From: Bacillota bacterium
Lineage (GTDB): Bacteria; Bacillota; UBA5301
Direction: 5' to 3'
Assembly (NCBI GenBank): GCA_012735535.1
Contig: JAAYHC010000056.1
Span: 1 to 52,785, forward strand
Length of the DNA stretch: 52,785 nt
Translations under genes and position numbers: made by a program
Shown here: positions 31,300 to 34,734 of the stretch, one piece after another
Position numbering within the stretch: the stretch's first letter is position 1
Layout of the letters: each line of letters opens with the position of its first letter
The notes under the pieces: model-generated
What the model saw: only the letters and a program-made list of their open reading frames with translations
What the model was told of the DNA's origin: nothing
Databases searched by the model: none

Positions 31300-32163
31300 G
31301 TGCAGTGCGACCTCTGCCCGCACTATTGCCGGCTGAAGGTAGGGGCTACCGGGCGCTGCCAAGCCCGGGCGGCGACGGAGAGCGGTTTGGTTTCCCTGAA
31401 CTACGGATTGTTTACCGCTATTTGCGTCGATCCGATCGAGAAGAAACCGCTATATCATTTTCACCCCGGGACGAACATTTTGTCGCTCGGCTCGTTTGGC
31501 TGTAACTTGAACTGCCCGTTCTGCCAAAACTGGGAGATTGCCCGGGCTAAGCGGCCGGCCGTGGCTGAGCTTTCCCCGGATGAGGTTGTCCACCTAGCCG
31601 AAAAAAGTGCGCGGGAAGCGGGAAGCATCGGCGTTGCCTTTACTTACAACGAGCCGTTAATGAGCATCGAGTATTTATTAGCTACGCTGCCAAAGTTGCA
31701 GGCGGCCGGACAAAAATCGGTTTTAGTGACCAATGGGATGATTAACCCGGAACCGTGGCGTGAGTTGCTCCCGTATGTCGATGCGGTCAATCTGGATATC
31801 AAAGCTTTCACGCCGAACTTTTATCGGGAGGTGGTCGGAGGTGACCTCGCTACCGTGCTTGCGGCGGCGAAAATGCTCTTTATCGCCGGGGTGCACTTGG
31901 AGCTAACCTGCCTGTTGATACCGGGTCTCAATGACGAACTTACCGAAATCGGGCAGTTGGTTGACTGGATAGCTGCCGAGCTGAGTAGCGAGGTACCTTT
32001 GCATTTTTCGCGGTATTTCCCAAGGTATCGGATGAATAATCCGCCGACCAGCCTGCAGAGGCTAAAGGAAGCCGTTGACTTAGGCCGCAAGCAGTTGCGG
32101 TATGTCTACGCAGGAAATGCGCCGGAACTTGGGGAAGAATATACAGGGCGGAGTCCATTTTAA
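31300..32163 (+). CDS. amrS: AmmeMemoRadiSam system radical SAM enzyme AmrS
   Basis: At least 287 aa. An N-terminal Cys cluster (CDLCPHYCRL, then GRCQAR) precedes DPIEKKPLYHFHPG and the radical SAM motif GCNLNCPFCQNW (CxxxCxxC, about residue 67). The rest (AFTYNEPLMSIEY, VTNGMINPEPW, LDIKAFTPNFY, LLIPGLND) is typical of AmrS, a pyruvate-formate-lyase-activating-enzyme relative. The start is unsure: GTG 31300 falls directly before the Cys cluster, while the frame stays open back to 31249 and reads ARFWHWLSDREV, like the usual family leader, with no ATG, GTG or TTG in it. Confidence 0.88.
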   Translation: MQCDLCPHYCRLKVGATGRCQARAATESGLVSLNYGLFTAICVDPIEKKPLYHFHPGTNILSLGSFGCNLNCPFCQNWEIARAKRPAVAELSPDEVVHLAEKSAREAGSIGVAFTYNEPLMSIEYLLATLPKLQAAGQKSVLVTNGMINPEPWRELLPYVDAVNLDIKAFTPNFYREVVGGDLATVLAAAKMLFIAGVHLELTCLLIPGLNDELTEIGQLVDWIAAELSSEVPLHFSRYFPRYRMNNPPTSLQRLKEAVDLGRKQLRYVYAGNAPELGEEYTGRSPF

Positions 32164-32179
32164 GATGAGGAGGATTAAT

Positions 32180-32386
32180 ATGGGACAAAAGTTTACGGAG
32201 GATATGACGATTTACCAGGCTTTGCAGGTTCACCCACAAGCCAAAGAGGTGTTGATGAAATACGGTATGACCTGTTTCGGCTGTCCGGGAGCGTTGAGCG
32301 AAACGATCGCTGAGGCAGCGATGGTGCACGGCCAGAGCAAAGATAAGATTCTCGAAGACTTGAATGCTTTGGTCGCCGGACAGTAA
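32180..32386 (+). CDS. DUF1858 redox disulfide domain protein
   Basis: 68 aa. MTIYQALQVHPQAKEVLMKY, then GMTCFGCPGALSETIAEAA match the DUF1858 family (hybrid-cluster-associated disulfide domain). The CFGC pair is the likely redox centre. ATG 32180 follows GAGGAGG by 6 bases; longer in-frame starts fall inside amrS. Common in anaerobes; function unknown. Confidence 0.92.
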   Translation: MGQKFTEDMTIYQALQVHPQAKEVLMKYGMTCFGCPGALSETIAEAAMVHGQSKDKILEDLNALVAGQ

Positions 32387-32458: not shown

Positions 32459-33229
32459 TTATTTCTTGTGGGCATTCGGATGGCAAGGAGTGCAGTCCAT
32501 TTTGGTTAAGGTATTGCTCATTCTGCTGACGTGGCAGTTGTAGCAGCTCTCCATAGAGGCCGGGATCTTGTAGGTCTGGGCAAACTTGCCGTCAAAGTAA
32601 GCATTGAGCACTTCAACGGTTTTCGCGGCCGTATCGCCGGAGAGTTTGCCGCAGCGCTCTTTGCGCTCCGGAGAGTCTTCTCTGTAGCCGCTAGCCGCAC
32701 ACCATTTGCTGACCGAGGTGTGGCAGAGCGGATTGCCGGCCACGCTTTGCGCGGTCGGATACTTTTGCCAGGCTTGATGTTTGTCCAAGGGTAGAGCCGT
32801 CTCCGTATACCAACCGAATACTTCGTCAAGAACTTTCGGCATATCACTAAAGGGTACAACTAGGTTAACTACTGCGGCTATGCCGTTGAGGGTCCCGCAG
32901 ACCGTACCCCAGCTGGCAATGCCTGCGCTACCCCAGCGGTACATATCGGCGTTAATGGTGGTCCAAGGATAACCGACTTTTTCCTGCAACTGCAGGGCAA
33001 GTGCGCCAACGCACGCCTTCATTCAGCCACCTTGGAAATAAAGCTCATAACCTAATTTCCGGGCGCGTTCCGGATCCAATTTGACGTACGGCCACGGTAG
33101 GGGATGAAATTCCGGCTCGGCGGCAGAGGTTAAAAGGCTTCCACCCAGGGCAGAACCGACAGCCGCTCCGGCCATGAAACTGCTGCTGCTTAAGAGAAAT
33201 TCCCGTCTTGTAAGTAGTTTGTCTGTCAT
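32459..33229 (-). CDS. Split-Soret-cytochrome-like diheme selenoprotein candidate, copy 1
   Basis: 256 aa if TGA at 33025-33023 is read as Sec69. Residues 1-38 are a twin-arginine signal (LTRREFLLSSSSFMAG). Sec stands in GG-Sec-MKACVGAL, where C_GCAxxG_C_C proteins have their first conserved Cys. The other family cysteines are kept: Cys111 in WGTVCGTLNG, Cys169 in NPLCHTSVSKWC and Cys177. Two heme sites, CYNCH (229-233) and CTPCH (246-250), lie at the C-terminus, as in split-Soret cytochrome c of Desulfovibrio, which has two hemes and an iron-sulfur centre. The product should be exported folded by Tat. ATG 33229 has GGAGGTG 7 bases upstream. A nonsense mutation is unlikely since the paralogue has the UGA at the same codon. 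Confidence 0.82.
32996..33017 (-). promoter_or_regulatory. SECIS-like hairpin, cytochrome copy 1
   Basis: On the minus strand GTGCG (33014-33010) pairs with CGCAC (33005-33001) around TTGG. A lower stem GGC/GCC (33017-33015 with 32998-32996) has a two-base bulge. It begins 9 bases after the in-frame TGA. Confidence 0.68.
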
Positions 33230-33522: not shown

Positions 33523-33880
33523 TTATTTATTTATGTGGTTTGATAGCTTGTACGCCGGGACGAACTTGCCGCCAAAATAGGCGTTGAAAAGCTCGACAGC
33601 TTTCGCCGCACAGTCTCCGGATAGCCGGGCGCTGTGGACAGTTTGCAGAAACTTGGCCCACGCAAGGTGTTTGTCGGTGGGCAGGGCAGTTTCGAAATAC
33701 CACCCGAGTAATTCGCCGGTTCAGGTGCCGATATCCGCAGCCGGTGCGACGAGGTTGCTGGTTGCGGCCGGCCCGTTAACAGTGCCGCCGACCGTACCCC
33801 AACCGGCGATACCTCCGCCACCATAGCGGTTAATAGCGAGATCAGAACGGTGAACGGATAGACGACTTTCTCCGCAACAC
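33523..33880 (-). pseudogene. Decayed third copy of the split-Soret-cytochrome-like gene
   Basis: The minus strand still reads RYGGGGIAGWGTVGGTVNG, then, after a TGA at 33723-33721, TGELLGWYFETALPTDKHLAW, and later LSGDCAAKAVELFNAYFGGK, all aligned to the intact copies. It lacks the Tat signal, the Sec site, the Cys of CGTxxG (now GGT), about 40 residues with LCH and WC, and both heme motifs, since the frame ends at TAA 33525-33523. A frameshift lies near 33830. The TGA falls where intact copies have Leu, so it is nonsense and not Sec. Confidence 0.85.
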
Positions 33881-33904
33881 CATACAGTTAGATAAAGAAT
33901 AAAT

Positions 33905-33928
33905 CGACCGCGGGAAATCCCGCGGTCG
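33905..33928 (-). terminator. Hairpin downstream of cytochrome copy 2
   Basis: CGACCGCGGGA pairs with TCCCGCGGTCG in a near-perfect inverted repeat about 24 bases after the stop codon of copy 2. On the minus strand it is followed by GATTTATTC, only a weak U-tract. Confidence 0.7.
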
Positions 33929-33951: not shown

Positions 33952-34734
33952 TTATTTTTTATGGGCGTTCGGGTGACAAGGAGCACAGTCCATGTTGGTC
34001 AGAGTGTTGCCCAACATACTGGTCTTGCCGACGTGACAGCCCTGACACTTAGCGGTTTCAGCAGAAACTTTGTAGGCCGGTGTGAAGTTCTTGGCGTGGT
34101 AGCTATTGAGCAGCTCGATGGCTTTGGCAGCTACATCGCCGGCCAGCATGGCGCAGCGGTTGAGACGCTCTTCGTCGGTTTCTCTAAAGCCGCTGGCCGC
34201 ACACCAATTGCTGACCGAAGCATGACACAGCGGGTTGCCGGCGATACTTTGGGTCTTGTTGGGGAACTTAGCGTAACTTTCGTGATTCATGGTGGGCAGG
34301 GCGGTAGAAGAATACCAGCCGAATAGTTCGCCAACCAGTTTGGGGACATCGGCCGCCGGGACTACTAAGTTGATCATGTTGGCTGCACCGGCGAGTGTAC
34401 CACACAGGGTGCCCCAGCTGGCCCCGCCGCCAGCCCCCCAGCGATACATATCAGGGGTCAGGAGAGTGTAGGGATAACCGACTTTTTCCTGCAACTGCAG
34501 GAGGATAGCGCCAGCGCTACCCTTCATTCAGCCGCCGTTGTAGTACAGATCGTAACCAGTTTTGTAGGCAGCTTTCGGATCCAGCTGTTTGTACGGCCAC
34601 GGCCAGGTTGGCACCTCGTTGGCTGATGCCGGCAACAAAAAGCTCCCACCGAGCATGGAGCCGACTGCCGCCCCGGCTAGAAAGCTACCGCCACTGACGA
34701 GGAATTCTCGTCTGGACAAAGTCTTTTCCATCAT
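33952..34734 (-). CDS. Split-Soret-cytochrome-like diheme selenoprotein candidate, copy 2
   Basis: 260 aa if TGA at 34530-34528 is read as Sec69. Tat signal LSRREFLVSGGSFLAGAAVG; Sec in GG-Sec-MKGSAGAI; Cys111 in WGTLCGTLAG; NPLCHASVSNWC; heme sites CQGCH (230-234) and CAPCH (250-254). Layout, spacing and the Sec codon number equal copy 1. Copy 1 has an extra Cys four residues after Sec; here it is Ser. ATG 34734 has TTGGAGGTG upstream; a longer in-frame start would break the Tat signal. Two full paralogues with UGA at one site argue for recoding. Role: exported electron-transfer or redox protein, substrate unknown. Confidence 0.84.
34503..34521 (-). promoter_or_regulatory. SECIS-like hairpin, cytochrome copy 2
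   Basis: On the minus strand TAGCG (34519-34515) pairs with CGCTA (34510-34506) around CTGG; GG/CC extends it below with one bulged T. Position relative to the TGA is identical to copy 1, and two pairs differ by compensatory changes (G-C to U-A, U-A to A-U). Confidence 0.72.

Follow-up and report, generated by a model that had tools for sequence, protein, structure and literature searches.

Two tandem genes in a 52,785-nucleotide stretch of DNA from a Bacillota bacterium, called the window here, very probably encode split-Soret cytochromes c in which selenocysteine (Sec69) stands for the first Cys of the C-GCAxxG-C-C core, with SelB acting on a hairpin (H2) downstream of the in-frame UGA; another hairpin (H1) may fold the spacer before it. 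By computation, we established the identity of the genes, the coincidence of the UGA with a Cys column, the presence of the sel genes, selection acting on the RNA of both hairpins and the conformity of H2 to the bacterial SECIS model. The relevant features are the following.

33952..34734, minus strand: split-Soret cytochrome c gene, copy 2; 260 codons plus TAA, UGA at codon 69
34528..34530, minus strand: in-frame UGA of copy 2, read as Sec69, aligned with the first Cys of C-GCAxxG-C-C
34503..34522, minus strand: hairpin H1 of copy 2, GGGUAGCG-CUGG-CGCUAUCC, putative spacer-folding element
34487..34502, minus strand: hairpin H2 of copy 2, UCCUGC-AGUU-GCAGGA, putative SelB-binding SECIS core with its loop 31 nt after the UGA
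33905..33928, minus strand: intrinsic-terminator-like hairpin 3' of copy 2
33531..33900, minus strand: decayed third tandem copy, matching residues 97-160 and 194-227, without the Sec codon region
32459..33229, minus strand: split-Soret cytochrome c gene, copy 1; 256 codons plus TAA, UGA at codon 69
33023..33025, minus strand: in-frame UGA of copy 1
32998..33017, minus strand: hairpin H1 of copy 1, core GUGCG-UUGG-CGCAC at 33014-33001
32982..32997, minus strand: hairpin H2 of copy 1, CCUGC-AGUU-GCAGG, 5 bp

The gene copies and their relation to split-Soret cytochrome c

Copy 2 is encoded on the minus strand, which the original prediction did not name, from 34734 to 33952 and yields a protein of 260 residues when the UGA is read as sense. 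It is preceded by a GGAGG ribosome binding site and carries a twin-arginine (Tat-like) signal, SRREFL, at its N-terminus. Over its whole length, it matched NF047622 (split-Soret cytochrome c) with an E value of 1.7e-47, and its best match in the PDB was 1h21 (residues 44-256, E 2.5e-34). The scores against NF047622, 162 bits for copy 2 and 156 bits for the other copy, lie below the equivalog cut-off of 400, and the gathering score of PF09719 (C_GCAxxG_C_C), which is 27, was exceeded by the two window copies with 36.7 and 38.2. The relatives tested against TIGR01909 scored 18-27 bits, below its cut-off of 47. Copies 1 and 2 are 59% identical, and dN between them is well under dS on either side of the UGA, indicating purifying selection. 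Both contain two CxxCH motifs and the four core cysteines, Sec replacing one of these. Positions U/C69, C111, C170 and C194 are essentially invariant among the relatives, and the two CxxCH motifs are likewise kept in most full-length relatives. AlphaFold models of the two window copies had a mean pLDDT of 54, which is below the usable level.

Whole-length homology, two CxxCH motifs and four conserved cysteines are thus shared with the Desulfovibrio split-Soret cytochrome c (NF047622, 1h21), from which the window copies differ by Sec in place of the first Cys and by their distant host lineage. A novel iron centre of split-Soret cytochrome c is named in the title of a paper by Abreu et al. that is cited in PMC5701242. 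The core motif is common to the window copies and the C-GCAxxG-C-C family (PF09719, TIGR01909); the window copies add the Tat-like signal and a dihaem tail, although accessions listed for the family may be dihaem too. The family is listed as a selenoprotein family (PMC9312934), its selenoprotein forms 1 and 2 are listed as well (PMC13188914), and TIGR01909 is named a (seleno)protein by NCBI. Sec in the C-GCAxxG-C-C family is therefore already known, and what is unusual here is the tandem, shifted SECIS. In the literature searched, no paper was found that links split-Soret cytochrome with selenocysteine or selenoprotein, with the proviso that the listed family accessions may include dihaem forms.

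The decayed copy sits between the intact copies 1 and 2, which suggests recent gene turnover. The same genome contains a Cys paralogue without H2 (L022, G000:C81:26840-27622) and a further UGA paralogue with both H1 and H2 (L025, G000:C55:27006-27758). Elsewhere, an array of several split-Soret paralogues was found (L051, G212:C64:74300-79200), one of which contains, between its two haem motifs, an in-frame UGA with UGC after it, at the equivalent of position 248 and off the Sec column. Convergent with copy 1, the window also encodes a small protein with a CFGCPGA motif (32102-32386, plus strand), which we take to resemble DUF1858, here with Cys; DUF1858 is listed as a selenoprotein family (CxxU).

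Probable selenocysteine at codon 69

Relatives were gathered by whole-genome searches of the window's class, 399 genomes of the phylum and two further classes, and 101 distinct sequences were analysed. At the site aligned to residue 69, 35 of them have UGA and 66 have Cys, and in all 35 UGA relatives the UGA column is that of the invariant first Cys of C-GCAxxG-C-C. Contig C69 of the same genome carries a cluster of selC (tRNA-Sec, anticodon UCA), selD, a SelA-like ORF and selB, in this order; the SelA-like ORF is so named only from its sequence and its place in the cluster. In-frame UGAs also occur in this genome's selD itself (Sec) and in a formate dehydrogenase-like (FDH) gene, each with a SECIS-like, G-first loop 18-19 nt on, which adds to the case for Sec decoding. 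Genome-wide reassignment of UGA was considered and ruled out, since ordinary ORFs of the window, otherwise open under table 11, also terminate in UGA.

The bacterial SECIS rules of PMC13188914 ask for a loop of 3-9 nt with G as its first or second base, a stem of 4-16 bp, a distance of 16-37 nt between the UGA and the loop, and an energy of <= -7.5 kcal/mol. These criteria were passed by 34 of the 35 UGA genes versus one of the 66 Cys genes, the single failing UGA gene being copy 1 (energy, with a bare stem of -6.8). The loop of the passing hairpin comes 17-20 nt after the UGA in 30 UGA genes, and at 31 nt, as H2, in those of the window's class. In the 25 relatives whose canonical SECIS could be placed in one register, 94.3% of cells were paired and 20 were double-changed. 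A maximum-likelihood tree requires at least six changes between Sec and Cys and divides the five UGA genes of the window's class between two clades, both of which have Cys genes as their sister group. One sequence (L127, G473:C41) is a Cys form inside a Sec clade, without a SECIS that passes the criteria, and is a probable Sec-to-Cys reversion.

Two readings that deny decoding have to be weighed against these data. Were the UGA a real stop between two translationally coupled ORFs, translation would restart at the adjacent AUG (UGA-AUG), and an AUG does lie directly 3' of the UGA in 5/5 genes of the window's class. However, Met is also frequent after Cys in the Cys homologues, where no restart is required, and 30 other UGA homologues lack an AUG at that place; moreover, UGA is confined to the Cys column and SECIS structure is found only with UGA. 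We regard coupled ORFs as highly improbable. Even less credit can be given to the notion that the copies are pseudogenes in which a recent nonsense mutation created the UGA. A decayed third copy does lie between the two genes, but copies as divergent as these share the UGA and all haem and Fe-S cysteines, the dN and dS values given above speak against decay on both sides of the UGA, and a UGA is present at the same codon in several other lineages of the phylum.

Decoding of UGA69 as Sec in the window copies is thus strongly supported as a prediction from sequence. The original prediction, made from the window sequence, had placed a TGA at codon 69 of both copies, where we also see it, and had proposed that it is decoded; the UGA/Cys column (35 versus 66), the sel cluster and the SECIS criteria (34/35 versus 1/66) bear this out. 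It had further held that covariation of a hairpin, our H1, was the strongest sequence evidence in the window for decoding. Here we disagree: the main evidence is the column match together with the sel genes, and these outweigh H1.

Two adjacent hairpins downstream of the UGA

With the U of UGA counted as nt 1, the core stem of H1 joins nt 12-16 to nt 21-25 in each copy; it reads GUGCG-UUGG-CGCAC in copy 1 and UAGCG-CUGG-CGCUA in copy 2. The hairpins start equally far from the TGA, as had been claimed. The loops CUGG and UUGG and the two compensated pairs, 12-25 (U-A/G-C) and 13-24 (A-U/U-A), were likewise reproduced, and the residues encoded across the stem do differ (MKGSAGAI versus MKACVGAL). 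In copy 2 the minimum free energy structure extends H1 to 8 bp, with nt 9-16 all paired to nt 21-28, and 6/8 of these pairs are formed in copy 1. When codons were redrawn synonymously with each gene's protein kept, the folding energy of nt 8-29 gave p = 0.0025 for copy 2 and 0.08 for copy 1; because the latter value is only 0.08, H1 in the two window genes alone is modest evidence.

H2, which the original prediction did not contain, occupies nt 29-44 and starts at the base right after H1. It agrees with the loop, G-position and spacing rules of the bacterial SECIS model (bSECISearch) and with the stem rule (AGUU, 5-6 bp, 31 nt), and its loop, AGUU, is invariant at 31 nt from the UGA in the five UGA genes of the window's class. 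The same loop is found in the canonical-position SECIS of another relative (L012). With -8.7 kcal/mol, H2 of copy 2 is below the limit of -7.5, and that of copy 1 is borderline, at -6.8 kcal/mol for the bare stem and -8.3 when folded with its flanks. H2 thus has the properties of a SelB-binding element, and we infer that SelB binds it. The SECIS usual in this family lies at 17-20 nt; H2 differs from it by its distance of 31 nt and by having a further hairpin, itself under selection, between it and the UGA.

Under the synonymous null, the five Sec genes of the window's class had excess structure at nt 8-29 (Fisher 8e-6) and at nt 28-45 (2e-6) but none at nt 13-36, the other Sec genes were structured only at nt 13-36 (Fisher 2.8e-26), and the 66 Cys relatives had no excess at any tested region; these Fisher values overstate independence because the sequences are related. 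In the comparison of copies 1 and 2, dS rises from 0.31 over the first 17 codons 3' of the UGA to 2.09 further on. Both H1 and H2 thus appear to be under selection as RNA. Covariation, which the original prediction had proposed as a check, was scored across the same five genes: for H2, 96.7% of cells were paired, 3/6 pairs were double-changed and 0/500 shuffles reached the score, whereas H1 was 80% paired and 20/500 shuffles reached its score, counts that reflect few independent events since there are only five such sequences in two clades. A covariance model of the H1-H2 tandem scored convincingly only in these five genes (seven genomes of the class). At gathering thresholds, Rfam contained no known RNA family at the H1/H2 locus; its sole match in the window was an S10-Clostridia ribosomal protein leader (RF03136, 167-246, plus strand, 40.4 bits).

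The fold of H1 therefore exceeds chance, as the original prediction had it, but its assignment as the SECIS is not supported. One could argue that the UGA is Sec and that H1 itself binds SelB, H2 being accessory: H1 of copy 2 is more stable than H2, H1 is selected in the Sec genes of the window's class, and opening of the inner pair gives a G-first loop in copies 1 and 2, the only way in which the G rule is satisfied. Yet the H1 loop starts 12-13 nt after the UGA (9 nt in a re-registered form in L017), short of the 16-37 nt of the rule. Its sequence varies among the UGA genes of the class (CUGG, UUGG, UUUAAU, UUCAAC and the re-registered GGCGCUGG of L017) where that of H2 is invariant, and its covariation is the weaker of the two. 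UGA homologues without the hairpin, named beforehand as evidence against it, were looked for and found: none of the 30 UGA relatives from other classes than the window's has H1. With a variable loop that begins only 13 nt after the UGA and lacks an early G, and with no counterpart in those relatives, H1 is improbable as the hairpin that SelB binds. L017 (G002:C27:25189-25629) is a close relative with UGA and H2; it has a TAA five codons upstream of the UGA and runs off the contig end, the matching C-terminal part being found on another contig (L028). The TAA and the contig break may reflect assembly error or decay.

Proposed model and its implications

In the model that we favour, Sec69 with H2 as the SECIS, the product would be a split-Soret-type cytochrome c exported via its Tat-like signal, with haem on the two CxxCH motifs. 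The iron centre of split-Soret cytochrome c is [2Fe-2S], and the four core cysteines presumably ligate such a centre here. Sec69 would take the place of the first of these four invariant positions in the C-GCAxxG-C-C core and would then probably be a ligand of the Fe-S centre; electron transfer is the putative function. SelB with Sec-tRNA(UCA) would bind the apical AGUU of H2, 31 nt past the UGA. H1 adjoins H2 and probably stacks on it, so that the long spacer would be folded away; this would put H2 at the place of the usual SECIS loop, 17-20 nt. We count against the tandem model that the SECIS-like loops after the selD and FDH UGAs are G-first and come at 18-19 nt, a pattern from which H2, with AGUU at 31 nt, departs. 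Only tentatively, and with the balance somewhat against it, do we suggest the combined proposition that a two-hairpin SECIS arose by a shift of about four codons within one family and that the cytochrome has a Sec-bound [2Fe-2S] centre.

Under the standard code, annotation turns each of the genes into two pieces, a stub of 68 residues and a cytochrome without its head. The family forms a compact natural series with several exchanges between Cys and Sec and two SECIS positions in a gap-free protein register, and with Cys paralogues in the same genome both SECIS relocation and Sec/Cys exchange are directly testable. If Sec69 does bind the Fe-S centre, the series would reveal the effect of selenium on such a centre.
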